Below, one piece after another: positions 14,572 through 54,149 of a DNA stretch of 64,000 bases; the first letter of the stretch is position 1; each line of letters begins with the position of its first letter. The translations under genes and the position numbers were made by a program. The notes beneath the pieces are model-generated. The model was not told the DNA's origin and did no database searches. It saw only the letters and a list, made by a program, of their open reading frames with translations. This stretch comes from Archangium violaceum (GTDB lineage: Bacteria; Myxococcota; Myxococcia; Myxococcales; Myxococcaceae), in NCBI RefSeq assembly GCF_016887565.1, contig NZ_CP069396.1:1949001-2013000 (forward strand). The letters are read 5' to 3'.

Positions 14572-15882
14572 CTACCCGCCGAGCACCTGGAGGGCGCGGG
14601 CGTAGTAGGCGTCGCGGCTGGCCTTGCCGTTGTATCCGCCGTTCACGCGGTAGGTGATGGCGTCGAAGTTGCCCGCGTCCGCGTAGCTGTTGAGGTTGCG
14701 GTTGTTCCAGTACCAGGCCGCGGTGCGGAAGCCCACGTCCGGGTCGGCGGCGCGCGTCGGGTTGTTCTCCAGGTCGATGCCCAGCGCCCGCCCCGCGGCA
14801 CGGTAGTTGGCGCGGCCGGTGAGCTGGATGGGACCCCGGCCCTTGAAGCGCACGCCATCCCCCGGCTGCGTGTTGCCCAGGTCCGCGCGGCCCTCGTAGG
14901 CGGCGCCGGAGGCGATCTCCTCCATGTAGCGGAACTGGCCGCTCTCGTGCGCCAGCTGCGCGAGGAAGGCCGCCTGCCGCCGCGGGGTGTTGATGCCGGC
15001 CTCGGCCATGGCCGAGTTGAGGTGCGGCAGGAGCTCGTTGGCGCGCGCCTCGGAGAGGTTGGGCATGATGGCGCGCAGTTGCTGCACGCTCACTCCGCCC
15101 GCGGTGCCCGGCTCGCTCGGGCCCCTCACGGGCCCCGGCCCGGTGACGGGGCCGCTCGGCGTGGACGGCGCCGAGCCGCCCGGGATGGAGAGCCGCTGGC
15201 CGACCTGGATGAAGTTGGGATTGGAGATGCCGTTGGCCTGGGCGATGGCACCCACGCTGGTGCCGTAGCGGGCGGCGATGCCGCTGAGCGTGTCGCCCGG
15301 CTGCACCGTGTAGCTCCGCGAGGCGGGAGCCGGAGCCGGCGCACTGGGGCCCGAGGCGCCGGGGATGTTGAGTCGCTGGCCGACCTGGATGAGGTTGGGG
15401 TTGGAGATGCCGTTGGCCTGGGCGATGGCGCCCACGCTGGTGCCGTAGCGCCCGGCGATTCCACTGAGCGTGTCGCCCGGTTGCACCGTGTAGCTGCGCG
15501 AGCCGGTGGCGGGAGCGCTGGGGCCCGAGGCGCCGGGGATGTTGAGTCGCTGGCCGACCTGGATGAGGTTGGGGTTGGAGATGCCGTTGGCCTGGGCGAT
15601 GGCACCCACGCTGGAGCCGTAGCGCCCGGCGATTCCACTGAGCGTGTCACCCGGCTGCACCGTGTACGAGCGCGCTTCGAAGCGGTCCGAGGATGTGGCC
15701 GGGTTGGCTGCTCCCGGACGGTTGGGGGCGTCGAATCCATCCGGGATGACCAGCCGCTGACCCGCGATGATGCGGTTCGGGTCCTGGATGTTGTTGGCCT
15801 TCGCCAGTGCGTCAACCGAGGTGTTGTACTGCCGGGCCAGGGCGCTGAGTGTGTCGCCCTGCCGGATGGTGTGCACGGCCAT
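14572..15882 (-). CDS. Peptidoglycan hydrolase: four LysM domains plus GH19-like lysozyme/chitinase domain
   Basis: 436 residues from the ATG at 15882 (MAVHTIRQGDTLSALARQY), preceded by AAACGAGGACACC. Four LysM modules (~residues 3-48, 72-116, 129-173, 188-232) end in QRLNIPG/QRLSIPG-type motifs; they bind peptidoglycan or chitin. A linker leads to a C-terminal GH19-like domain (~260-436) with AFLAQLAHESGQFRYMEE, where the Glu after His is the expected catalytic acid, GRGPIQLTGRANY and WYWNNRNLN. No classic signal peptide is present, so export may need lysis or a dedicated route; phage endolysins and injection-system effectors share this layout. It is divergent from the methyltransferase gene with a palindrome between. 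Confidence 0.87.
   Translation of the reverse strand: MAVHTIRQGDTLSALARQYNTSVDALAKANNIQDPNRIIAGQRLVIPDGFDAPNRPGAANPATSSDRFEARSYTVQPGDTLSGIAGRYGSSVGAIAQANGISNPNLIQVGQRLNIPGASGPSAPATGSRSYTVQPGDTLSGIAGRYGTSVGAIAQANGISNPNLIQVGQRLNIPGASGPSAPAPAPASRSYTVQPGDTLSGIAARYGTSVGAIAQANGISNPNFIQVGQRLSIPGGSAPSTPSGPVTGPGPVRGPSEPGTAGGVSVQQLRAIMPNLSEARANELLPHLNSAMAEAGINTPRRQAAFLAQLAHESGQFRYMEEIASGAAYEGRADLGNTQPGDGVRFKGRGPIQLTGRANYRAAGRALGIDLENNPTRAADPDVGFRTAAWYWNNRNLNSYADAGNFDAITYRVNGGYNGKASRDAYYARALQVLGG
15184..15669 (-). repeat. Three near-identical tandem DNA repeats encoding LysM modules 2-4
   Basis: Units begin at about 15184, 15364 and 15538 (spacing 180 and 174 bases) and are almost identical in DNA over ~135 bases, for example CTGGCCGACCTGGATGA in each. 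Linkers between them vary in length. The first LysM module (15740-15880) is clearly more diverged. This indicates recent tandem duplication or gene conversion within the gene. Confidence 0.8.
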
Positions 15883-39285: not shown

Positions 39286-40704
39286 TTACGAAATATGACG
39301 GGCAGCCCTCGCCTGCCCGGTCGCCTGCCCTGACCCGGGAGCGGCGGGGAGATTGACGCGAGCGGTCGTTCCCAGACCGGGCTGGCTCTCGAGCGTGAGC
39401 GTGCCTCCGTGGGCGACGACGATGCGGCGGGCGAGGGCGAGTCCCAGCCCCACGCCTCCCGTCTTCCGCGCGCGGCTGCGGTCACTGCGGAAGAAGGGGG
39501 TGAAGAGGTGCGGCAGGTCGTTCGCGTCGATGCCGATGCCCTCGTCGCGCACCTCCACCTGGAGGCCGTCCGCGGTGCACCGGGCGTGCAGCCGCACGGT
39601 GGTGTGGGGCTCGGAGTACTTGCCGGCGTTGTCCAGCAGGTTGTCGATGGCTCGGCGTAGCAACACGGGGTCGGCCTCCAGCGCGGGCAGGGTGCCATCC
39701 ACGTGCACCTCGAGGCGGTGCTCGGGCCGGGCGGAGCGGAAGCGCGCGGCGGCCTTGTCCACCAGCGTCTGGGCCTCTACGTGCTCGCGACGCAGGGGAG
39801 GAGTGGCACCGGGAGTCTGCCCGGTGGCCAGGTCGAGGCGGGCGGCGGTGAGGATGTCGGACACCAGGCGCTCCAGCTCGGAGAGGTCCTCGGCGATGTC
39901 GGAGAGGGACTCGCGGGCCAGGGCGGCGTCACCCTCGCTGGCCAGGTCCAGGGCGACGCGGATGCGGGCCAGGGGCGTGCGCAGCTCGTGGGAGACGTTG
40001 GCCAGCAGCTCCTTCTGGGAGCGCAGGAGAAGGGTGATGCGCTCGGCCATCTCGTCGAAGGCCTCGGCCACCTGGCCCATCTCGTCGCGGCGGCGCAGGC
40101 CGGTGCGCACGTCGAGCATGCCGGCACCGAAGGCGCGAGCCACCTCGGCCAGCCGCTGCAGGGGCACGGCGAGGCTGCGGGCGAAGACGAGCGAGGTGAT
40201 GGCCGTGCACCCGAGCGCCAGGGCAATGGGCACCACGGGGCTGGGGGGAGGCTGGGGTGGTGGGGGGAGCTCCACCACGGCGTAGGCCTCCATCGGACCG
40301 GTTTCGGGGATGGCCACGTACATGGCGGGCGGAGGACCGGTGCCGCGTTTCATCACGCGCTCGGTCTCGAGCCGTTGGAACTTCTCGGCGGAGATGGGAG
40401 CGAGAGGGGGCGAGATGTTGGTGGCGAAGACGCGGCCATCCACGGTGCGCATCGTCACCTTCACTCCGAGCCGTTGGCGAACCCGGTTGAGCGCCCCCTG
40501 GAGCTCCTCGGGTCGATCCCGGAGCGAGGCCCACTCGGAGACGTTGTAGGTGCTGGTTCGTTCGAAGGTCTCGCGAAATGAGTCTTCTCGTGTGTAGCGG
40601 CGGACGGTGGTGAGCGCGAAGAAGACGAGCAGGAGCTGGGCGATGCCCACCAGGTAGATGCGCCACAGCAGGCGGCTGGGGAAGCGGGGACGCCGGATGT
40701 TCAA
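39286..40704 (-). CDS. Sensor histidine kinase 1 (CpxA/RstB-like)
   Basis: 472 residues. Start codon is TTG at 40704, overlapping the regulator stop as TTGA; the same arrangement occurs in the paralogue at 49452-50822. Helix 1 ~13-33, a periplasmic sensor of ~120 residues ending in a Pro-rich stretch (~147-156), helix 2 ~157-179, HAMP ~180-232, then HisKA (His239 in NVSHELRTPLARIR) and HATPase (NLLDNAGKYSE, DEGIGI, GVGLGLALAR). Autophosphorylates and passes phosphate to the regulator encoded at 40701-41429; it likely controls the downstream MacAB-TolC genes. A 15-residue C-terminal extension is absent from the paralogue. Confidence 0.93.
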   Translation of the reverse strand: MNIRRPRFPSRLLWRIYLVGIAQLLLVFFALTTVRRYTREDSFRETFERTSTYNVSEWASLRDRPEELQGALNRVRQRLGVKVTMRTVDGRVFATNISPPLAPISAEKFQRLETERVMKRGTGPPPAMYVAIPETGPMEAYAVVELPPPPQPPPSPVVPIALALGCTAITSLVFARSLAVPLQRLAEVARAFGAGMLDVRTGLRRRDEMGQVAEAFDEMAERITLLLRSQKELLANVSHELRTPLARIRVALDLASEGDAALARESLSDIAEDLSELERLVSDILTAARLDLATGQTPGATPPLRREHVEAQTLVDKAAARFRSARPEHRLEVHVDGTLPALEADPVLLRRAIDNLLDNAGKYSEPHTTVRLHARCTADGLQVEVRDEGIGIDANDLPHLFTPFFRSDRSRARKTGGVGLGLALARRIVVAHGGTLTLESQPGLGTTARVNLPAAPGSGQATGQARAARHIS

Positions 40705-41429
40705 GGCTCGTCCCCCGTGGCGAGCAGGTAGCCGGCGCCGCGCACCGTCTTAAGGAGCCTGGGGTTGCGCGGGTCTTCTTCGATCTTCTGGCGGATGCGG
40801 AAGATGTGGACGTCGACGGAGCGGTCGAAGACCTCCTCGGCGTTGCCCTTGACGAGGTCGAGCAGCTGCTCGCGGCCGAGGACGCGGCCGGCGCGCTCGG
40901 CCAGGACGCGCAGCAAGCCGAACTCGTACGTGGTGAGGGACAGCGCCTTGCCATCGAGCGTGGCGCTCATGTTCCCGGGATCCAGGGCCAGCTTGCCGAC
41001 CTGGATGGGCTGGGAGGAGGGCCCGGCGCGACCCCGGGCCCGGCGCACCTGGGCGCGGATGCGCGCGAGCAGCTCGCGGGAGGAGTAGGGCTTGGAGAGG
41101 TAGTCGTCGGCGCCGGTCTCCAGGCCGAGCACGCGGTCGGCCTCCTCGCCGCGAGCGGTCACGATGATGATGGGGACGTTGCTGCGCGTGCGCAGCTCGC
41201 GGCAGACCTCCACCCCATCGCGCCCCGGGAGCATGAGGTCCAGGAGGACGACATCATAGGTGTGGCGGTTGGCCTCGGTGAGGCCCTCGGGGCCGGTGCG
41301 GGCCACGGTGACGAGGATGCCGTGCTCCTGGAGGTAGCGGCTGGTGAGACGGGCCAGTCGCTCGTCGTCCTCTACCAGCAGCACCTGGATGGTGCCCTCG
41401 TCCGTGGTTGTAGGTGTCGTCGGGTCCAC
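40701..41429 (-). CDS. OmpR-family response regulator 1
   Basis: 242 residues from the GTG at 41429 (ribosome site GGAGGAGAG); this start aligns with the ATG of the paralogue at 51547 and gives the same length. Receiver domain: acidic pair VEDD (20-22), phospho-acceptor Asp64 in VVLLDLMLPG, Thr in IIVTARG and Lys in YLSKPYS. DNA-binding winged helix with EEVFDRSVDVHIFRIRQKI (recognition helix region) identical apart from one residue to that of the paralogue. First gene of the RR-HK-MacA-MacB-permease-TolC operon. An inverted view of the pho-box-like site at 41575-41607 lies 146 bp upstream. Confidence 0.94.
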   Translation of the reverse strand: MDPTTPTTTDEGTIQVLLVEDDERLARLTSRYLQEHGILVTVARTGPEGLTEANRHTYDVVLLDLMLPGRDGVEVCRELRTRSNVPIIIVTARGEEADRVLGLETGADDYLSKPYSSRELLARIRAQVRRARGRAGPSSQPIQVGKLALDPGNMSATLDGKALSLTTYEFGLLRVLAERAGRVLGREQLLDLVKGNAEEVFDRSVDVHIFRIRQKIEEDPRNPRLLKTVRGAGYLLATGDEP

Positions 41430-42670: not shown

Positions 42671-43297
42671 TCAGGAGTGCTCCAGGACCACACCCTCGAT
42701 GACGTGGGCGACATCGAGGCACTTGTCAGTGGCGGTCTCGATGAGGTCGTAGATCTCCTTCCACTTGATGATGGTGAGGGGGTCCACGCCGCTCTTGAAG
42801 AGCTGCCCCTTGCCCGAGCGCAGCAGCTCGTCCGCCTGCGTCTCCAGCCGCTTGATGGCCTTGCAGCCGGAGAGGATCCGCTCCGGCTGCTTGATGAGCC
42901 GCAGCATCGCCACCACCTCGCGGATCTTCTCCGTGCACAGCACCAGCACCCGCGACAGCTCGGTGGCCTCCGGCAGGCTCGATTGAATCTCGTAATAGTG
43001 GAGCCGGGCCGCCGCGGCGTTGGTGAAGTCCAGCACCTCGTCGATGCGCGACAGCAGCGAGTGGATCTGCGTCCGGTCGAACGGGGTGATGAACTGCTGG
43101 TGCAGCCGCGTGAAGGCGGTGTGTGTCACCGAGTCGCCCTTATGCTCCACCTCCTTGAGCGCCTGGACGCGGGCGGCCACGTCCCGGTAGTCGCTCAGCA
43201 GCGCGTGCAGCATCTGCGCGCCCTGCACGGTCACGGCGCACTGGGCGTCGAAGTCGTCGAAGAACTCGTCGGACCTGGGCATCAGCTTCTCGAGCAT
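42671..43297 (-). CDS. DUF47 / TIGR00153 family PhoU-like protein
   Basis: 208 residues, ATG at 43297 with CAGGAGAGAGACC. All-helical with the family motifs KEVEHKGDSVTHTAFTRL and TPFDRTQIHSLLSRIDEVLD (metal-binding Asp/Glu-His patterns as in PhoU), and the C-terminal KWKEIYDLIETATDKC. DUF47 proteins accompany Pit phosphate permeases and are thought to control them; no pit gene is in the window. It is the last gene of the CotH-VTC operon, 26 bp after DUF4956, which places phosphate control next to polyphosphate synthesis. Confidence 0.85.
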   Translation of the reverse strand: MLEKLMPRSDEFFDDFDAQCAVTVQGAQMLHALLSDYRDVAARVQALKEVEHKGDSVTHTAFTRLHQQFITPFDRTQIHSLLSRIDEVLDFTNAAAARLHYYEIQSSLPEATELSRVLVLCTEKIREVVAMLRLIKQPERILSGCKAIKRLETQADELLRSGKGQLFKSGVDPLTIIKWKEIYDLIETATDKCLDVAHVIEGVVLEHS

Positions 43298-43323: not shown

Positions 43324-43978
<655 letters not shown>

Positions 43979-43992
<14 letters not shown>

Positions 43993-45664
43993 TGCGTAAC
44001 TCCTGGGTGTGGTCCGCCGCGGCCCGGGCAGCCTGGCGCAGCAGTGCGAAATCATGGGGGTGGCTCTCCAGCAATCGCTCGATGAGCGCCCGTCCCCGGG
44101 GGGTCATGGCCAGCAGGGGACCCAGGCTCTTCACCGTGGCGGCGGGCCAGGTGTCCGCCAGCGCCGTGCGCAGCTTCCACGCCGTGGCGCCCTCCAGGCC
44201 CACGAACGAGTCCAGCGCTTCCTCGCACTGCACGCCGAAGGACTCGCGCAGCGCCCAGGCGCGGGGATGGTCCAGGCCATTCAGGGTTCCGAGCACCGCC
44301 CGGGGAGCGCGCGCCACGTGCTGCTCGCGCATCTCCCAGGCGCGCTCGCCGTCGATTCCGTCCAGCGTGCGCAGCACGGCATCCGGTGCCGCCTCCCAGG
44401 CGCGCTCGCGCCAGTCCCAGGCCCGCGCGTCATCGAGTCCCCGGATGGAACGGCACGCGGTGCGCGCCACCCGCTCCAGGCCGAGCGCCGCCTCCCCGCC
44501 CATGTCCGACAGCCAGCGCCCCCGCTCCTTCCAGGCGCGCTCGCTCCCGAGCCCCGCCAGCGAGGTGACCACCTGCTCCGCCGCGGCGAAGTAGAGGCGC
44601 TCGCGCAGCGCCCAGGCCTTCTCCGAGTCGAGCCCCGACAGGGAGTCCGCGACGGCCTCGGGCTTGCGCGTCTCCCACCGCTCGCGCAGCGCCCAGGCCT
44701 CCGGCGTCTCCGCGGCCAGCTCCTTCAGCGAGCCGAGCACCTGCACCGGCGCCGCTTCCTCCAGCTGCCCGCGCAGGTTCCACGCGTGCGCGTCCGTGAG
44801 CCCGGACAGGCCGTAGGCGATGACCTCGGGGAACCGCCCGGCCAGGCGCGTCTGGCGCTCCTCGATGTCCGGACCCTCCAGGCCCGAGAGGAACCAGGCC
44901 GCGAGCTGCGGCTCCTCGTCCATCCAGGCATCCACCCGCGCGAGGAAGCGCGCACGGGCCTCCGCCAGCGAGTGGATGGACGGCGCCGGACGGGCGCGCG
45001 TGGGAAGGGACATGAGGGGCTCGCCGCTCTTGAGGTGCAGCACGTGCTGCACCAGCAGGGCCACGAGCGTGTCGAGTGGCACGTCCGCGTTCTCGATGAG
45101 GCTCCACTGCTCGGGGGACTCCGCCGCGAGGGCCCGGTAACCCGCGCGCAGCCGTGCCTGCATTCCCACGCCGGCCAGTCCCTTCCGGGAGGAGGCACCC
45201 TGCGGTGGCGCGAGCAGCTTGGAGATGCGGCGGCGGGCGCGGGCGATCGCCGGGTCCACGTCGATGAGGAAGACGTGGTCCGGCCGCAGGCCCCGGGCGC
45301 AGGCGTCCAGGACGGGCCGCACCTCGTGCTCCGGGAGCCCCCGCCCCCAGCGGGCGAGCACCTCCGCGGTGTAGAGGAAGCGGTCCGCGATGACGATCTC
45401 GTACTCGGCCAGCGCGGGGCGCGTCACCTCCTCCAGCAACTGCGTCTCGCGAGCGGTGTAGAGCAGCAGCTCGGCCATGGGGGTGAGCGCGAGGTTGCGG
45501 GGGTTCTTGGTGAAGAGCCGCAGCCCCTCGGATACCGGGGAAGCCAGCTTGCCGTCCTCGCGGACGTGACGCACGCGCAGCCCCGCCCGGCGCAGCTCGC
45601 GCGCCACGCGGTTGGACAGCGTCGTCTTGCCAGAGCCATCGATTCCTTCGAATACGATCAACAT
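43979..45664 (-). CDS. Thymidylate-kinase-like domain fused to nine or ten 27-residue repeats
   Basis: 561 residues, ATG at 45664 within the porin stop (TGATG). Residues 1-205 are a thymidylate kinase-like P-loop domain: Walker A VFEGIDGSGKTT (4-15), DRF in IVIADRFLYTAEVLA, and DHVFLIDVDPAIARARRR. Residues ~230-540 consist of repeats of about 27 residues, consensus L-x-G-L-D-x-x-x-A-W-x-x-R-x6-A-P-x-x-V-L-x-S (for example GLDSEKAWALRERLY, GIDGERAWEMREQHV, GLDHPRAWALRESFG), likely paired helices forming a solenoid. I know of no named repeat like this. A nucleotide kinase with a scaffold inside a polyphosphate operon could use polyphosphate-linked nucleotides; that is speculation. Confidence 0.8.
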
Positions 45665-46842
45665 CAGAAGCTCACCTCCATCTGCAGCATCAGCGCCCGC
45701 CTCTCGGTGAGGCTCTTGTCGAGGGCCTTGAGCGTCGCCGGCACGGAGGCCTCCGCGCGGCGGCTCTCCACCTGCGCCTGCAACCGCCAGCGCCTCCACT
45801 GGCCGAAATTGAGTCCTCCCGCCGCCTCCCAGAGCAGGTCCTTCTGGAGCTGGAGGTCCGGGTCGAGCGCCGACAGCATCACGAAGGGCTCGACGTACAG
45901 CGCTCCCTTCGAGCCGCTCCCGATGCGCCAGGCGGTCAGGGCCCGCGCCGTGAGCAGCGGTCCCTCGGCGCCGATGAGCAGGTCCGAGCGCCCCACGAGC
46001 ACCTCGGCCCAGGTGCGCAGCTCTCCCTGGCCGATGGGCAGCGCGTGCCTCGCGTCGAACCCCGCCGTCCAGTTGGACCACGTGTCGCTCGTGCTCGTCC
46101 CGGGCGGTTGCACCTGCGCGGAGGCGCCCAGCTCGAGCGTGTCCAGCACCGCCCACGTGCCGCGGATCGCCGGGATGAGACCGAGCCCGTTCTCCAGGGC
46201 GACGTCCTCGTTCTCGGCGGACTGCCATACCCCGGCCCGCAGTTTCAGCTCCCGGTCACAGCCGGTGCACTTCCACTCGAGCTGCGCGCCGAGCCGGCGG
46301 CCGGTGAGCCCCAGCCCGTCGGACAGCACATCCCGCCCCAGGCCCCGGCGCACGAGCGGGAGCCTCGACGTGGACTCGAGCTCCACGAGCGACAGGGGCA
46401 CCTTGAACTGGCCGGCCCGGAGGGAGAACCCCTTGGAGAGCTTCAGCCAGGCGTAGGCGTCCTTCAGGCCGTCCGAGACGTCGAACTCCACCACGGCCCG
46501 CAGGCGCTTCTTCCATTGATAGGTGAGCTCGATGCGCGCGGCGGGAAGGGAGAGCTTCCCGGCCAGGGCCTCCTCGCCCTTGGCGTCGATCGCCTCGCGG
46601 ACGGAGAGCCGGCCACCCACCTGCACCGAGCCGAACGCGGAGGGCAGTTGGATGCTCCCCTCGTTCTCCTGTTCGGTCGGAGGGGCCTCCTCGGGGGCCG
46701 CTGGGGGAGCCTCGGGAGCCACGGGGGCTTCCTGGGGTTCGGCTTCCTGTGCCCGGGCGGAGGACACGAGGAGCATCGCGGCGAGGGTGAGCCACCCGGT
46801 GGAGCGGCTGCGGCGGGCGGGGGGATGATGAGGGCTGTACAC
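45664..46842 (-). CDS. OprO/OprP-like (phosphate-selective type) porin
   Basis: 392 residues from a GTG at 46842 with AGGAAG upstream; no ATG is usable before the signal peptide (LTLAAMLLVSSARA). An acidic Pro/Glu/Ala linker (~30-65) precedes the barrel. The stretch YQWKKRLRAVVEFDVSDGLKD...SLRAGQFKVPLSLVELESTS is the hallmark of the phosphate-selective porin O/P family, followed by further alternating strands and a C-terminal LMLQMEVSF ending in Phe. Uptake of phosphate or polyphosphate through the outer membrane is the expected role, agreeing with VTC and DUF47 in the operon. Confidence 0.75.
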   Translation of the reverse strand: MYSPHHPPARRSRSTGWLTLAAMLLVSSARAQEAEPQEAPVAPEAPPAAPEEAPPTEQENEGSIQLPSAFGSVQVGGRLSVREAIDAKGEEALAGKLSLPAARIELTYQWKKRLRAVVEFDVSDGLKDAYAWLKLSKGFSLRAGQFKVPLSLVELESTSRLPLVRRGLGRDVLSDGLGLTGRRLGAQLEWKCTGCDRELKLRAGVWQSAENEDVALENGLGLIPAIRGTWAVLDTLELGASAQVQPPGTSTSDTWSNWTAGFDARHALPIGQGELRTWAEVLVGRSDLLIGAEGPLLTARALTAWRIGSGSKGALYVEPFVMLSALDPDLQLQKDLLWEAAGGLNFGQWRRWRLQAQVESRRAEASVPATLKALDKSLTERRALMLQMEVSF

Positions 46843-46862: not shown

Positions 46863-47627
46863 TCACTGCGTGGAGGACGTGCTGGCGAGGCGCGCGCGCA
46901 TGCCTTGTTCGAACTTCGAGCCGCGGGTCTCGAAGGGCTCCAGCCGCCAGAACAGCCCCTCCAGCCAGGAGGGGGTGCTTCCCCGCCACTTCACTTCCAG
47001 CAGGATGGCGGGGGCGCGCTCCAGCAGCCTCGAGGGGGTTGCCGGTTCGCCCAGGGAGCTCCGCTCCGGTGGGAGCGCGAAGACGAGATCCTCGTCCACG
47101 GTGATGCGCACGCCGGCATCGTGGGTCCTGTGCGTGCCGCGGCGGTACCAGGCCGTGACCCAGGGTCTCACCGGGGCGTGGGGCAGCTGTCGCAGGAGCT
47201 GGGCCGCCGCGCTCCCCTCGGGCGGGAGCCCACCCGAGAGCAGCGCCGCCGCTTCGTCCGCGGAGAGGGAGACACGGACCTTGGAGCGCCGTGCCCCGGT
47301 GTTCTTCTTCAGCTCGAGGAACCGGGCTCCGGACAGCACGGGCGGGAGGGCGAGGTCCGCCGTTCCCGCGTACTCCCGGAGCCGCAGCCGTTGTGCGTGC
47401 CCGGCCCGGCACGAGTCCAGGAAGTCCAATCCATCGGTATCGAAGTAGGTCGTCCGCGTGAAGGCGAACGGAAGACCGGAGTCGTACACGCAGGGCGTCG
47501 TCCAGCTCCGGATGTCCTTCAGGAATGCTTCCAGCGCCTCGCGCGAGGGTTGGAACTTCCTTTCGTGATCCAGCTCCGGTGCGGAGGACGACATGGGATG
47601 GGAGCTCGTGCGGGCCAGGGCGTTCAT
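46863..47627 (-). CDS. VTC-domain polyphosphate polymerase
   Basis: 254 residues; ATG at 47627 overlaps the CotH stop (ATGA). VTC/triphosphate-tunnel features: HERKFQPS (first basic/acidic strand pair), TRTTYFDTDGLDF, QRLRLREYA, FLELKKN, YRRGTHRTHDAGVRITVDEDLVF and LLEVKWRG. Lys, Arg and Glu of these strands line the tunnel that binds polyphosphate/ATP in yeast Vtc4. It probably polymerises or binds polyphosphate at the inner membrane with DUF4956 as membrane partner. It has no SPX domain, so phosphate sensing would come from elsewhere. Confidence 0.85.
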   Translation of the reverse strand: MNALARTSSHPMSSSAPELDHERKFQPSREALEAFLKDIRSWTTPCVYDSGLPFAFTRTTYFDTDGLDFLDSCRAGHAQRLRLREYAGTADLALPPVLSGARFLELKKNTGARRSKVRVSLSADEAAALLSGGLPPEGSAAAQLLRQLPHAPVRPWVTAWYRRGTHRTHDAGVRITVDEDLVFALPPERSSLGEPATPSRLLERAPAILLEVKWRGSTPSWLEGLFWRLEPFETRGSKFEQGMRARLASTSSTQ

Positions 47628-49252
47628 GGGGTCGTTCCGAAAGCGGCCCGGACCTCGTTCTGACGCCTGGCCGCGAAGCTCAGCAGGCCGCTCGTGCCGC
47701 TGAACGCGTCCTCGAATGCCTGGGCGTTGCTCACGAAGGTGTAGCCCGGCTGCTCCGCGTTCTCGCCCACCACCCAGGGGGTGATGAGCTCATGCGCCGC
47801 GCGCATCCGGGCCTGCAGCGAGTCCGGGGCGACCGGGCCCTGCACCGCCTCCAGCGCATACTTCTGATAGGTCGCCCGGTAGATGGGGTCATCCATCAGG
47901 AAGCGGATGAGCGGCCAGTTCGCGTCCACGGTGTCCTGCGTCAGCGACGTCGCCCGTCCCATGCCGCTGCTCATGGCCCGGTCATGGTCCCAGGTAATCC
48001 ATTGCAGGCGCCCGCCCTGGTTCGGATCGGCATACAGGTAGTAGTTGTGGGACATGGCGCCGTAGGCGTCCCAGTTCTGCAGCACGGTGTTGACCGCGAG
48101 CCACTTCAGGAAGCCATCGACGTTGAGCTTCTCCTCGAGGCGTGCGCGCCAGGCCGCCGCGTCGGTGCGGTCGGAGTTGAGCACGGCGATGGTCTCCTCC
48201 ACGGGTGCCCAGCCCAGCTCCTCGTTCTCTTGAATCTCGAAGGACTCCTGATCGAACGCCGCCAGGCGCGCGCCCGGGCCATCCGCCTCGTAGAGCGCTC
48301 CCTTGTGGCCACCGAAGGTGCGGTCGAGCAGCGACTCCGCCGGGTCTTCGTTGAGCGTGTAGAGGCCCCAGTACTGGGAGCCCTCTCCGTGGTCCACGTA
48401 CAGGGCGACGAAGGAGGTGTGCCCGGCCGGCACTCCCAGCTCGCGGAAGACGTCCGTGGCCACCTTGTCGCGCATCAGCGACGTGTCTGCCGCGCCGTTG
48501 CCCAGGGACAGCTTGGTGAAGCCGTAGAAGCGCTGATCCTCGATCTCCGGGTGCTCGTCCTCGAACTTGTCGAAGTTGAACCGCAGCGGCAGCTTGCCCA
48601 CCCCGCTGCGCCACGTCTGCGACAGCGAGGAGTTGCCCTTCATGCGCACGCCCACGTAGTTCCAGCTCTTGCCGTTGAAGTGCACCGTCGAGGGCACGTA
48701 CACGGGCGTGTTGGGGATGATGTCCCCGCCACCGCCTCCACCGGGTCCGCCGCCGCCCGGAACGCCACCGCCATCCGGTGTGCCGCCACCCGGTCCACCT
48801 CCACCTCGTGGGGGCCGGCACAGGAGCTGAGGGCCAGCTGGCGTCTGGGTGCAGGTGCTGGTGAAGGTGCTGCCCTGGTAGGTGGCGGTGCAGGTGTCGC
48901 CCAACGCCTTGCCCTCACAGGGCTGCACGAGCTCGGGCGGGAACGTCATGCCACCGCCGCCGTCGGGGCTGCCGCCACCGCCACCACCGCCGCCAGGGCC
49001 CATCCCCCCGCCGGTTCCGAACTCGCCCAGCATGGCGGTCATGTCGTCCTGCATCGTCTTCCAGTCCTCTGGAGCGATGACGAGGTCGATCCGCTGCACC
49101 TTGTCCTGGGCGAAGACGACGTCGTAGGCGGGGGCGGCGTTCTTGCCGTGAGACTCCTCGCTCCAGCCTTCGGGCCGCTCGACGCCACCACATGCGGTGG
49201 TGAAGGCGAAGGCGAGCGTGGCGAGTGCTCCTAGACGCGTACTTCCTTGCAT
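47624..49252 (-). CDS. CotH family protein kinase-like lipoprotein with Gly-rich insert
   Basis: 542 residues; ATG at 49252 (GAGAGGACCCCCC). Lipobox FTTAC. The N-terminal strand YDVVFAQDKVQRIDLVIAPEDW is the CotH start. An insert (~72-180) of two Gly-rich runs surrounds a small Cys module (PCEGKALGDTC ... TCTQ ... LLC). Kinase-like core: VGVRMKGNSS, KLPLRFNFDKF, KLSLGNGAADTSLMRDK, YWGLYTLNEDPAESLLDRTFG, WLAVNTVLQNWDAYGAMSHNYY and WITWDHDRAM with the metal-binding Asp. CotH proteins phosphorylate secreted/spore-coat proteins. First gene of a six-gene operon behind a pho-box-like site. Confidence 0.88.
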   Translation of the reverse strand: MQGSTRLGALATLAFAFTTACGGVERPEGWSEESHGKNAAPAYDVVFAQDKVQRIDLVIAPEDWKTMQDDMTAMLGEFGTGGGMGPGGGGGGGGSPDGGGGMTFPPELVQPCEGKALGDTCTATYQGSTFTSTCTQTPAGPQLLCRPPRGGGGPGGGTPDGGGVPGGGGPGGGGGGDIIPNTPVYVPSTVHFNGKSWNYVGVRMKGNSSLSQTWRSGVGKLPLRFNFDKFEDEHPEIEDQRFYGFTKLSLGNGAADTSLMRDKVATDVFRELGVPAGHTSFVALYVDHGEGSQYWGLYTLNEDPAESLLDRTFGGHKGALYEADGPGARLAAFDQESFEIQENEELGWAPVEETIAVLNSDRTDAAAWRARLEEKLNVDGFLKWLAVNTVLQNWDAYGAMSHNYYLYADPNQGGRLQWITWDHDRAMSSGMGRATSLTQDTVDANWPLIRFLMDDPIYRATYQKYALEAVQGPVAPDSLQARMRAAHELITPWVVGENAEQPGYTFVSNAQAFEDAFSGTSGLLSFAARRQNEVRAAFGTTP

Positions 49253-49451: not shown

Positions 49452-50822
49452 TCAGGGGGCGGCGGGGAGGGTGATGCGGGCCGTCGTTCCCAGGCTGGGC
49501 TGGCTCTCCAGGATGAGAGTGCCGCCATGGGCGACGACGATGCGGCGGGCGAGGACGAGTCCCAGCCCCACGCCCCCCGTCTTCCGCGCGCGGCTGCGGT
49601 CACTGCGGAAGAAGGGGGTGAAGAGGTGGGGCAGGTCGCTCGCGTCGATGCCGATGCCCTCGTCACGCACCTCCACCTGGAGGCCATGCTCCAAGGGACG
49701 GGCATGCAGCCGCACGGTAGAGTGGGGCTCGGAGTACTTGCCGGCGTTGTCCAGCAGGTTGTCGATGGCCCGGCGCAACAGCACCGGGTCGGCCTCCAGC
49801 ACGGGCAGGGTGCCGTCCACGTGCACTTCCAGCCGGTGCTCGGGCCGGGCGGAGCGGAAGCGCGCGGCGGCCTTGTCCACCAGCGTCTGGGCCTCCACGT
49901 GCTCGCGGCGCAGGGGCGGGGTGGCACCGGGAGTCTGCCCGGTGGCCAGGTCGAGGCGAGCGGCGGTGAGGACGTCGGAGACCAGGCGCTCCAGCTCGGA
50001 GAGGTCCTCGGCGATGTCGGAGAGGGACTCACGGGCCAGGGTGGAGTCCCCCTCGCTGGCCAGGTCCAGGGCGACGCGGATGCGGGCCAGGGGCGTGCGC
50101 AGCTCGTGGGAGACGTTGGCCAGCAGCTCCTTCTGGGAGCGCAGCAGGAGGGTGATGCGTTCGGCCATCTCGTCGAAGGCCTCGGCCACCTGGCCCATCT
50201 CGTCGCGGCGGCGCAGGCCGGTGCGCACGTCGAGCATGCCGGCACCGAAGGTGCGAGCCACCTTGGCCAGCCGCTGCAGGGGCAGGGCGAGGCTGCGAGC
50301 GAAGACGAGCGAGGTGATGGCCGTGCACCCGAGCGCCAGGACGATGGGCATCACGGGGCTGGGGGGAGGTTGGGGGGGTGGTGGGTGCTCCACCATGGCG
50401 TAGGCCTCCATCGGACCGGTTTCGGGAATGGCCACGTACATGACGGGGGGCGGACCTTTGGCGCGTCTCACCACGCGCTCGGTCTCGAGCCGTTGGAGGT
50501 CCTCGGCGGAGAGGGGAGGGAGTGGACGCGAGGTATTGGCGGTGAGGACGCGGCCGTCGAGGGTTCGCATCGTCACCTTCATGCCGAGCCGTTGGCGAAC
50601 CCGGTCCAGTGCTCCCTGGAGCTCCTCGGGTCTATCCCGGAGCGAGGCCCACTCGGAGACGTTGTAGGTGGTGGAGCGCTCGAGGGACTCGCGAAACGAG
50701 TCTTCCCGTGTGTAGCGGTGGAGGGTGGCGAGCGCGAAGGAGACGAGCAGGAGCTGGGCGATGCCCACCAGGTAGATGCGCCACAGCAGGCGGCTGGGGA
50801 AGCGGGGACGCCGGATGTTCAA
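49452..50822 (-). CDS. Sensor histidine kinase 2, paralogue of the gene at 39286-40704
   Basis: 456 residues, TTG start overlapping the regulator stop as TTGA, as in the paralogue. The two proteins differ mostly in residues ~28-145 (periplasmic sensor) and are almost identical in helix 2, HAMP, HisKA (NVSHELRTPLARIR) and HATPase. It ends at PAAP, 15 residues shorter. The sensor input may therefore differ while the output is shared or able to cross-talk. It is not followed by exporter genes; a terminator closes the unit. Confidence 0.93.
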   Translation of the reverse strand: MNIRRPRFPSRLLWRIYLVGIAQLLLVSFALATLHRYTREDSFRESLERSTTYNVSEWASLRDRPEELQGALDRVRQRLGMKVTMRTLDGRVLTANTSRPLPPLSAEDLQRLETERVVRRAKGPPPVMYVAIPETGPMEAYAMVEHPPPPQPPPSPVMPIVLALGCTAITSLVFARSLALPLQRLAKVARTFGAGMLDVRTGLRRRDEMGQVAEAFDEMAERITLLLRSQKELLANVSHELRTPLARIRVALDLASEGDSTLARESLSDIAEDLSELERLVSDVLTAARLDLATGQTPGATPPLRREHVEAQTLVDKAAARFRSARPEHRLEVHVDGTLPVLEADPVLLRRAIDNLLDNAGKYSEPHSTVRLHARPLEHGLQVEVRDEGIGIDASDLPHLFTPFFRSDRSRARKTGGVGLGLVLARRIVVAHGGTLILESQPSLGTTARITLPAAP

Positions 50823-51547
50823 GGCTCGTCCCCGGTGGCGAGCATGTAGCCCGCGCCGCGCACGGTCTTGAGGAGCCTGGGGTTGCGCGGGTCCTCTTCT
50901 ATCTTCTGGCGGATGCGGAAGATGTGGACGTCGACGGAGCGGTCGAAGACCTCATCGGCGTTGCCCTTGACGAGGTCGAGGAGCTGCTCGCGGCTGAGGA
51001 CGCGGCCGGCGCGCTCGGCCAGGACGCGCAGCAGGGCGAACTCGTACGTGGTGAGGGGGAGGACCCTGCCGTCGAGCGTGGCGCGCAGGCCGCGCGGATC
51101 CATCGCCAGCTTGCCGACCTGGATGGGCTGGGAGGAGGGCCCGACGCGACCGCGGGAGCGGCGCACCTGGGCGCGGATGCGCGCGAGCAGCTCGCGGGAG
51201 GAGTAGGGCTTGGAGAGGTAGTCGTCGGCACCGGTCTCCAGGCCGAGCACGCGGTCGGCCTCCTCACCGCGGGCGGTCACGATGATGATGGGGACATCGC
51301 TGCGCGTGCGCAGCTCGCGGCAGATCTCCATGCCGTCTCGCCCCGGGAGCATGAGGTCCAGGAGGATGACGTCATAGGCGTGGCGGCTGGCCTCGGTGAG
51401 GCCGTCGGGGCCGGTGCCGGCGATGGTGACGAGGATGCCGTGCTCCTGGAGGTAGCGGCTGGTGAGACGGGCCAGGCGCTCGTCGTCCTCCACCAGCAGC
51501 ACCTGGATGATGCCCTCGTCCGTGGTGGCCTGTGTCGTCTGGTCCAT
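50819..51547 (-). CDS. OmpR-family response regulator 2, paralogue of the gene at 40701-41429
   Basis: 242 residues, ATG at 51547, same length as regulator 1. Receiver with phospho-acceptor Asp64 (VILLDLMLPG) and YLSKPYS. The winged-helix domain DEVFDRSVDVHIFRIRQKI matches regulator 1 except for the first residue, so both should bind the same DNA. Differences cluster in the first 12 residues and in the linker region MDPRGLRATLDGRVLP. Divergent from the RCC1 gene. Likely partner: the histidine kinase at 49452-50822. Confidence 0.94.
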   Translation of the reverse strand: MDQTTQATTDEGIIQVLLVEDDERLARLTSRYLQEHGILVTIAGTGPDGLTEASRHAYDVILLDLMLPGRDGMEICRELRTRSDVPIIIVTARGEEADRVLGLETGADDYLSKPYSSRELLARIRAQVRRSRGRVGPSSQPIQVGKLAMDPRGLRATLDGRVLPLTTYEFALLRVLAERAGRVLSREQLLDLVKGNADEVFDRSVDVHIFRIRQKIEEDPRNPRLLKTVRGAGYMLATGDEP

Positions 51548-51962: not shown

Positions 51963-54149
51963 ATGCTGAGAGACAGAAGAGGCGTGCGCGGAGTGCTGCT
52001 GTCCGCGCTGCTCGGGATGATGTTGACGACGGAGAGCGCCTGGGGCCTGCCGACGCGGCCCCGCGAGGTGGACTCGCGCGATGAGCTCGCCACGGGTCAG
52101 ACCCATACGCTGAGGGTTCGCCCGGACGGCTCGGTGTGGTCCTGGGGCATGAACACCGAGGGGGCGCTCGGAAACGGGACGTACCTGGACGTGCCACGGC
52201 CGGCGCCGGTGCCTGGACTCGAGGGCGTGGTGTCCGTCGCCGTGGGCCAGGGCTACTCCGTGGCCCTCGGCCGGGACGGTACGGTGTGGACCTGGGGCGC
52301 CAACAACACGGGCACGCTCGGAGATGGCTCGACCCTGGGGCGCCCCACGCCGGGGCAGGTGCCGGGTCTCCTGGATGTGACGTCCCTGTCGTCCGGCTGG
52401 TCCCATGTCCTGGTGGTGCGCGCGGACGGCACCGTGTGGGGCTGGGGCGACAACGGCGAGGGGCAGCTCGGCAACTCGAACGGCGGCACGTGGCGGGTGC
52501 CAGTGCAGGTGCCGGGTCTCACGGGCGTGGTGGCGACTTCGGGCGGACAGTCGCACTCGCTGGCGCTGCGTGAGGATGGCACGGTGTGGGCCTGGGGTGG
52601 CAACTACGCGGGCCAACTCGGGGACGGGACGACGATGGCCCGGTCCGCGCCGGGGCAGGTGCCGGGTCTCACGGGCGTGGTGGCCATCTCGGCGGGCGCC
52701 TGGTACTCGCTGGCGCTGCGCGAGGATGGCTCCGTGTGGGGCTGGGGCTACGACGGCAACGGCAATCTCGGAGTCGGGTCGAAAGTGGTGAGCCGGCCTT
52801 CCCCCGTACAGGTGCCGGGTCTCACGGGCGTGGTGGCCATCTCGGCCGGCATCTTCCACTCCATGGCGCTGCGCGGGGATGGCACGGTGTGGACCTCTGG
52901 CGAGAACGCCCAGGGTCAGCTCGGGGATGGAACGAGCGAGGACCGCGACGTCCCCGCGCGAGTGGAGGGACTGCACGCGGTGCGGTCCATCGCGGCCGGT
53001 CCCACCCACAGCCTGGCGGTGCGCGCGGAGGGCTCCGTCTGGGGCTGGGGTGACAACACCCTGGGCCTGCTCGGAACGGGCTCGAATCGCCGGCTCGAGC
53101 CCAGGGCGGTGGTGGGGCTCACGGACGTGGTGGCCACCGCTGGGGGCGGACAGCACTCGATGGCGCTGCACGCGGATGGCACGGTGTGGACCTGGGGTGC
53201 GAACTCCAATGGCCAGCTCGGCTACGGCTCGGTGACGGTCTTCACCCGGTTCCACGTGGTGCCGGCGCGGGTGCCGGGACTCACGGACGTGGTGGCCGTC
53301 GCCGCCGGTAACTCCCACTCGTTGGCGCTGCGTGCGGACGGCACGGTGTGGGCCTGGGGCTACAACAGCTCCGGTCAGCTCGGGGATGGAACGAAGGTCG
53401 TCCGGCCCTCGCCGGTGCAGGTGCCGGGACTCATGGGCGTGGTGGCCATCGCCACCGGTGACACCCACTCGCTGGCGCTGCGCGAGGACGGCACGGTGTG
53501 GACCTGGGGCTATGGCTCGTCGCCCTCGCCGGTGCAGGTGCCGGGACTCACGGGCGTGAAGGCCATCGCCGGAGGGAGCGCCTGGTCGCTGGCGCTGCGC
53601 GAGGACGGCACGGTGTGGACGTGGTTCTGCTACGGACCCGTCACGCTGTCGGACGGGACGACGGTTCCCGTGCTCACGCCGGTGCGGGTGCCGGACCTCA
53701 CGGGCGTGGTGTCCGTCGCGGCCAGCGGCCCCGCGGCGCTGGCGCTGCGCGAGGACGGCACGGTGTGGACCCGGGCTCCCAAATCCCTCACGTCCTCCCA
53801 GGTGCAGGGCCTCACGAACGTGGCGGTCATCGAGGGCGGGGGGTTCCACTCCCTGGCGGTGCGCGGAGACGGTACGGTCTGGGCCTGGGGTGGCAACGCC
53901 ATGGGCCAGCTCGGTGATGGGACGCTGACGGAGCGGACCTCTCTGGTGCGGGTGTCGGAGCTCACGGGCGCGGTGGCCATCTCGGGTGGCCTCGAACACT
54001 CGCTGGCCGTGCGTGCGGATGGCACCCTGCGCGCCTGGGGTGGCAACCTCTATGGGCAGTTGGGGGATGGTGTGGGCCCCGTTCACTACACCCCCGCCCG
54101 GGTGCTGCTGCCCCGCTCCGGGCCGCACGGAGGCCACGCGGCCCCCTGA
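51963..54149 (+). CDS. Exported RCC1-repeat protein (14 repeats)
   Basis: 728 residues from the ATG at 51963 (GGAGGAG before it). Signal peptide (GVLLSALLGMMLTTESAWG). The rest is 14 RCC1 repeats of ~50 residues with the pattern HSLALREDGTVWAWGxNxxGQLG and VPGLTGVVAIS; repeats 10-12 are short or lack the WG...LG part. Fourteen repeats would make two seven-bladed propellers. The DNA of the repeats is also conserved (GGCACGGTGTGGACCTGGGG), showing recent duplication. No other domain. Secreted RCC1 proteins are common in myxobacteria; a role in protein or glycan binding is guessed only. Confidence 0.85.
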   Translation: MLRDRRGVRGVLLSALLGMMLTTESAWGLPTRPREVDSRDELATGQTHTLRVRPDGSVWSWGMNTEGALGNGTYLDVPRPAPVPGLEGVVSVAVGQGYSVALGRDGTVWTWGANNTGTLGDGSTLGRPTPGQVPGLLDVTSLSSGWSHVLVVRADGTVWGWGDNGEGQLGNSNGGTWRVPVQVPGLTGVVATSGGQSHSLALREDGTVWAWGGNYAGQLGDGTTMARSAPGQVPGLTGVVAISAGAWYSLALREDGSVWGWGYDGNGNLGVGSKVVSRPSPVQVPGLTGVVAISAGIFHSMALRGDGTVWTSGENAQGQLGDGTSEDRDVPARVEGLHAVRSIAAGPTHSLAVRAEGSVWGWGDNTLGLLGTGSNRRLEPRAVVGLTDVVATAGGGQHSMALHADGTVWTWGANSNGQLGYGSVTVFTRFHVVPARVPGLTDVVAVAAGNSHSLALRADGTVWAWGYNSSGQLGDGTKVVRPSPVQVPGLMGVVAIATGDTHSLALREDGTVWTWGYGSSPSPVQVPGLTGVKAIAGGSAWSLALREDGTVWTWFCYGPVTLSDGTTVPVLTPVRVPDLTGVVSVAASGPAALALREDGTVWTRAPKSLTSSQVQGLTNVAVIEGGGFHSLAVRGDGTVWAWGGNAMGQLGDGTLTERTSLVRVSELTGAVAISGGLEHSLAVRADGTLRAWGGNLYGQLGDGVGPVHYTPARVLLPRSGPHGGHAAP

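Follow-up and report, generated by a model that had tools for sequence, protein, structure and literature searches.

The window, a 64,000-nucleotide stretch of the Archangium violaceum genome, carries on its minus strand (43979..45664) a gene for a thymidylate kinase (TMPK)-like protein of 561 amino acids plus stop, delimited by an open reading frame with an ATG start and by Pfam matching, in which the kinase domain is followed by a long repeat domain. Judged by its acceptor pocket, this family protein is probably not a dTMP kinase and is probably misnamed, because other residues stand at the thymine-contact sites in 46 of 46 family sequences. Since the ATP-site residues are kept, the acceptor pocket and LID are rewritten, and the linkage of the gene to VTC and DUF4956 genes is conserved, we consider it about an even bet that the protein is a TMPK-derived P-loop phosphotransferase that has moved off dTMP and would work with the adjacent VTC polymerase. 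The original prediction was that a TMPK may have been recruited here as a nucleotide or polyphosphate (polyP) kinase with a scaffold. The VTC linkage and the lost thymine contacts bear out recruitment to a polyP setting; the identity as a nucleotide or polyP kinase and the scaffold role stay proposals.

The kinase domain (residues 1 to 205; 45050..45664, minus strand) has the P-loop and DRF motif first read from the sequence. Walker A is GIDGSGKTT, the second motif is D94-R95-F96, the LID reads SRKGL, the thymine contacts are replaced, and Pfam Thymidylate_kin (PF02223) matches the N-terminal ∼205 residues at 2e-20 (73.7 bits; cutoff, 27). The ATG directly precedes the P-loop strand, and no signal peptide is seen by eye. 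NCBIfam TIGR00041, an equivalog model for dTMP kinase, accepts the window protein with 88.5 bits against a cutoff of 83.25, which counts against the VTC-kinase reading, and matches 17 of the 17 members of alignment A2 at an E value of ≤0.001. An AlphaFold2 model of the whole protein (8 aligned sequences) had a mean pLDDT of 88.9 and a pTM of 0.85, and the top 50 Foldseek matches to this model were TMPKs, led by 4edh_A with a TM score of 0.89 over the target. The window protein combines the TMPK fold with Walker A and the DR motif, Walker A being also part of the filter by which most of the family rows were collected.

We compared the acceptor pocket in 46 family kinase domains aligned with 70 plain TMPKs from one scan. 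The family rows comprised 34 distinct proteins (from L005 to L053) and 12 picked later, with L055 to L084, L091, and L093 to L096 left out; the 34 had passed a filter demanding Walker A, so retention of this motif is not independent, and all full-length loci in L005 to L053 passed. As controls we took the TMPK-only loci that passed a Walker A and DR filter, 70 of 73 (all but L121, L136, and L174); the deoxynucleoside-kinase-like L004 was excluded. The thymine-contact positions were in neither the family nor the control filter. The controls fall into 69 clusters at 90% identity and 34 at 70%; the family rows form 30 and 9, respectively, many of them being close relatives, a point against the VTC-kinase reading.

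The Phe, Arg, Tyr, and Gln sites presumably have the thymine-contact roles of these residues in solved TMPK structures. The Arg, present in 70/70 controls, is Asp or Glu in 46/46 family rows, and the Gln of AYQG, also present in 70/70 controls, is Ala, Ser, Thr, or Gly in 46/46. The Tyr site holds Leu in 43 family rows and Tyr in none (Tyr in 69 of the 70 controls), and the stacking Phe site holds Asn in 25, Tyr in 20, and Leu in 1 (controls: Phe in 58, Tyr in 12). The DR pair is kept in all 46 family rows, as is the Walker A Lys (part of the collecting filter), and the family-specific residues R72 and Q75 are likewise found in all 46. Where the controls have D/E-R-x-E in the LID, the family has S-R-K-G-L, conserved position by position in 43, 45, 45, 45, and 45 of 46 rows. 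The LID Arg is kept in 45/46, and the last position of the control motif (Glu in 62 and Asp in 7 of 70) is Gly in 45/46.

The C-terminal part had been described as nine or ten repeats of about 27 residues without a named family, and this description held. Residues 236 to 545 repeat with a period of 27 at a z score of 9.0, against at most 4.3 over all lags among 2000 shuffles, and the kinase part of the protein peaks at only 2.7; four further members also peak at lag 27 (z scores of 6.0 to 9.9), with the kinase parts of all five at ≤3.0. A-W-x-x-R occurs in eight units with spacings of 29, 27, 27, 38, 27, 27, and 26, and two extra degenerate units recognized by eye flank these, giving ∼10 repeats of the refined unit APxxVLxSLxGLDxxxAWxLRExx. 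An Arg follows the unit Ala by four residues in 136 of 136 cells (8 units by 17 sequences, alignment A2), with W in 64% and D in 56% of repeat cells, and seven of the eight repeat Args stay invariant when 8 sequences, including the more distant loci L098, L099, and L101, are aligned. The net charge of the repeat domain is −9 in the window protein and between −9 and +7 in the 17 members; that it is not net basic counts against the VTC-kinase reading. Searches of Pfam, NCBIfam, and PDB sequences returned no match covering the repeats. A known repeat family was thereby ruled out within those three collections; for HEAT, Sel1, and proteasome-cyclosome repeats in particular, Pfam gave no match to the window protein (E ≤10) or to the 17 members (E ≤1). 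The repeat domain was not found elsewhere in the host genome beyond the two paralogues (E ≤10).

Structure prediction, which had been proposed as a check on the repeats, gave a tightly curved alpha-solenoid at the C terminus. Modeled alone, the repeat domain (residues 228 to 552; 44009..44983, minus strand) reached a pLDDT of 93.3 and a pTM of 0.85 and consists of ∼10 helix-loop-helix units of 27 residues, each with one helix of ∼6 and one of ∼10 residues. The best Foldseek E value for this model against any chain was 0.028. VIA-align placed proteasome Rpn2 first, with a Z score of 15.1 (helical repeats can reach 14 by common arrangement), an rmsd of 4.7, 310 of 325 residues aligned, and 9% identity. 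Ranks 1 to 34 were all proteasome chains (Rpn1 or Rpn2 where titled), after which the Z score dropped from 11.2 to 10.4 and alphaRep, PP2A-A, importin, and similar chains followed at ≤10.4. The model suggests a closed or nearly closed alpha-toroid, to be read with the Z score of 14 that helical repeats reach by common arrangement. We considered the Arg ladder as a polyP groove, but a structural role seems no less likely, because by helical-wheel reasoning the Arg shares a helix face with A0, L+3, and L+7. As modeled, this unit of 27 residues, with its single invariant Arg, seems to be an undescribed alpha-solenoid repeat.

The kinase-repeat architecture is not a one-off fusion, because the host genome (13.2 Mb, single contig) holds a paralogue of the same build, 41% identical over residues 2 to 554, and full-length relatives occur in Myxococcales, in two other Myxococcota metagenome-assembled genomes (MAGs), and in one Planctomycetota MAG. 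We call the window gene type A and the paralogue type B. The type B gene lies among genes for a porin-like protein (PF07396, below cutoff), VTC, DUF4956, a DUF3108-like protein (below cutoff), and a purple-acid-phosphatase-like protein. Among the matches listed, the closest named loci are from Archangium at 85 to 86% identity, very near records of the genome itself possibly being excluded. Searching with the window protein matched 36 of 58 family genomes (E value of 1e-10), some through plain TMPKs only, and the family profile matched 75 of 145 class genomes (1e-20). In 195 phylum genomes, the matches extending past the kinase domain, among those listed, all came from the taxonomic order to which the host genome belongs. 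A scan of a genome-contig collection found at least 80 loci, at least 7 of which (L095 to L101) matched over near full length; among the matches listed, near full-length relatives came from a Kofleriaceae MAG (L098), a Myxococcales MAG (L099), and the Planctomycetota MAG (L101). In a 28-row tree with a midpoint root and long branches, types A and B each form one group (support, 100/99) and the three MAG loci fall on the type A side, which implies that the split is old. The most divergent family member, the order-level relative L089, has the repeats and a LID without SRKGL.

In the window, Pfam matches upheld the CotH-VTC operon context that had been proposed. All genes lie on the minus strand and are transcribed in the order CotH kinase-family protein (47624..49252; 542 amino acids), VTC domain protein (46863..47627; 254 amino acids; PF09359), Porin_O_P-type (phosphate-selective) porin (45664..46776; true start possibly upstream), kinase, DUF4956/MgtC-like putative membrane protein (43324..43992), and DUF47/PhoU_div protein (42671..43297; start from a simple gene caller). 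The CotH and VTC genes overlap by 4 bases, the porin and kinase genes share 1 base, and the kinase and DUF4956 genes overlap by 14 bases; these overlaps suggest one transcript. A sigma-70 scan found no promoter and is uninformative here. A 2.1-kb direct repeat, 92% identical between 39337-41428 and 49455-51546, brackets the operon, and both copies are a response regulator/histidine kinase pair, named by eye. Adjoining the operon on the opposite strand, 51993-54149 encodes a protein with RCC1-like repeats recognized by eye (WSWGxN..GQLGDG). Short internal direct repeats, 78 to 91% identical, lie at 15167-15666 and 53261-53775 of the window.

The association of the kinase with VTC extends well beyond the window. 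A same-strand VTC gene lies within 3 kb at 90 of 98 kinase places in 75 Myxococcales genomes, and 92 of 95 VTC matches in those genomes adjoin a kinase place, a few VTC genes giving two matches. The VTC list was drawn from 193 phylum genomes, and G061, G074, and G103 are absent from its listed rows. Of the eight misses, G070 is fragmentary and lies at the end of a contig, and G003 is half a gene whose other half lies on another contig with VTC. G042 and G061 each carry a VTC gene missed by the Pfam search, G014 and G105 have the VTC match on another contig, and G103 (locus L089) has neither VTC nor DUF4956 nearby. L053 and G105 C112 are type A operons without a VTC match beside the kinase, the VTC lying on another contig of the same genome. 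With our own profiles, which were seeded from counted loci and make these counts partly circular, VTC lay beside the kinase in 31 of 34 loci and DUF4956 in 30 of 34. The exceptions, which count against the VTC-partner reading, are L053, L089, and L098 for VTC and L089, L098, L099, and L101 for DUF4956. VTC linkage was found in clades A and B and in one MAG each of Planctomycetota and Myxococcota: in L101 VTC is directly upstream of the kinase and DUF4956 was not found, and in L099 VTC, an Na/Pi cotransporter, and the kinase lie in a row, with DUF47 ∼5 kb on.

The window VTC protein matches PF09359 at 5.8e-18 (65.7 bits; cutoff, 23). Across 12 aligned family VTC proteins, 21 residues are invariant, many of them charged, including E22, R82, E105, K107, K116, R118, R163, R174, D178, E211, K213, and K238. 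VTC superfamily polymerases have a charged tunnel. The invariant charged residues fit such a tunnel, and from these residues the polymerase is probably active. Against PDB sequences, the window VTC protein gave a single chance-level match, and no Vtc4 chain was matched.

Pfam detected no SPX domain and no membrane domain in the 254-amino-acid window VTC protein. Work on the yeast VTC complex describes how it couples polyP synthesis to transport via a membrane channel (PMC9911596) and how SPX domains control it (PMC10167327, PMC9911596). With neither domain detected by Pfam in the window VTC protein, there is room, we infer, for DUF4956 and the kinase in those roles. VTC would make polyP from ATP at the inner membrane face, DUF4956 would be the membrane part, docking on VTC or DUF4956 would fall to the repeats, and the kinase would transfer phosphate between an acceptor other than thymidine and either polyP or ATP. 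By analogy with PPK2, the acceptor would most likely be a nucleotide, for example, ADP released by VTC, the donor-acceptor pair and the direction of transfer being guesses. The reading of the protein as a phosphotransferase partnered with VTC also draws on the TMPK with an intact pocket encoded elsewhere in the genome, on the 21 invariant VTC residues, and on the whole-protein model (pLDDT, 88.9).

The main rival starts from the same Pfam result on SPX. The protein may be a regulatory nucleotide sensor that binds ATP or ADP and gates VTC in the manner of yeast SPX domains (PMC10167327, PMC9911596), with little or no turnover, and the modeled repeats would serve as its docking part. Such a noncatalytic role would leave identical sequence signs. 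However, the DR pair is kept in 46/46 rows and the LID Arg in 45/46, beyond the need of mere binding, and we regard the sensor as a serious but somewhat unlikely candidate. A bolder form of the VTC-kinase reading, which we put forward tentatively and think rather unlikely, is a bacterial counterpart of the VTC complex: DUF4956 would be the conduit, and the TMPK-derived kinase, with its closed Arg-bearing alpha-toroid, would hold or count nascent polyP and spend it on a non-dTMP acceptor. This would be a class of polyP-using kinase of separate origin from PPK1 and PPK2.

We find it unlikely that the protein is instead a kinase for protein, lipid, or glycan in CotH-like surface modification, with VTC supplying polyP. 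CotH, poly-phosphate polymerase, and DUF4956 do also occur together beside Gram-positive pel loci, as reported in parts of PMC7112168, but the ten type B neighborhoods scanned contain no CotH, yet kinase, VTC, and DUF4956 are still together there, and the protein starts at the P-loop strand with no signal peptide by eye.

Of the four PF02223 matches in the host genome, one is the housekeeping TMPK, whose dTMP pocket is intact (C1:5671970-5672605, equal to L001 1441-2076). The window gene as the sole TMPK is thereby ruled out; the search for a further TMPK gene that had been called for found both this enzyme and the paralogue. Searching with this housekeeping TMPK matched 110 of 117 phylum genomes at an E value of 1e-15. 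In the host's enzyme Thr replaces the Walker A Lys (GLDGAGTTTQ), a change common to the 30 best-scoring loci (L177 to L206), the genome itself included, all from one family. That the protein is another true dTMP kinase bearing a C-terminal scaffold is very improbable, for although the fold is that of a TMPK (4edh_A; TM score of 0.89 over the target) and TIGR00041 matches 17/17 members at E ≤0.001 and the window protein above cutoff, the thymine contacts are replaced in 46/46 rows, an intact-pocket TMPK is encoded elsewhere, and a match at 1e-10 is absent from 22 of the 58 family genomes sampled. Two PPK1-family matches and one PPK2 match in the host genome count against the VTC-kinase reading; given their presence, the window protein is not a stand-in for a missing polyP kinase.

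In the open-licence PMC literature, we found no report of a TMPK-like protein linked with VTC genes and no answer on the control of bacterial VTC-domain proteins or the role of DUF4956; in the passages of such papers that contain both "thymidylate kinase" and polyphosphate, the two are mentioned apart (a COG list; PPK2 resembling TMPK). With VTC next to a dedicated kinase at 90 of 98 places, the question of bacterial VTC control becomes testable in myxobacteria. Acceptance of the window protein by the NCBIfam dTMP kinase model means that a probably wrong name may be spreading.

Compared with known systems, the window family shares with TMPK (TIGR00041, PF02223) the fold, Walker A, the DR motif, and the LID Arg but differs in its replaced thymine contacts and LID D/E-R-x-E, its 310-residue repeat tail, and its VTC operon. 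The predicted repeat fold may resemble the Rpn1/Rpn2 toroid (Z score of 15.1, where helical repeats reach 14 by common arrangement; rmsd of 4.7; 310/325), whereas identity is 9%, the units are of 27 residues, and Pfam finds no match to such repeats (17 members, E ≤1). With the yeast VTC complex, as described in part of PMC9911596, the operon shares the VTC polymerase domain and here has a putative membrane protein as a neighbor, but SPX was not found in the window VTC protein and a TMPK-like repeat protein is present instead. CotH, poly-phosphate polymerase, and DUF4956 have been grouped as accessory genes beside Gram-positive pel loci (in passages of PMC7112168), and all three are present in the window, where the porin and kinase genes separate VTC from DUF4956; unlike in the pel-locus set, a porin, the kinase, and DUF47 are added, and "thymidylate" occurs 0 times in the main text of that paper. 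PPK2 (PF03976), like the window protein, is a P-loop kinase in a polyP setting, with an ancestry described as shared with TMPK, but the host genome has a separate PPK2, and the window protein has no PF03976 match, this family not being among the 19 Pfam families listed for the window at E ≤10, where HMMER filters drop most weak matches. Passages in two papers trace PPK2 polyP kinases and TMPK to a shared P-loop ancestor (PMC8776046, PMC3163519), and this common ancestry offers an earlier case of a TMPK-like fold adapted to polyP (PMC8776046).
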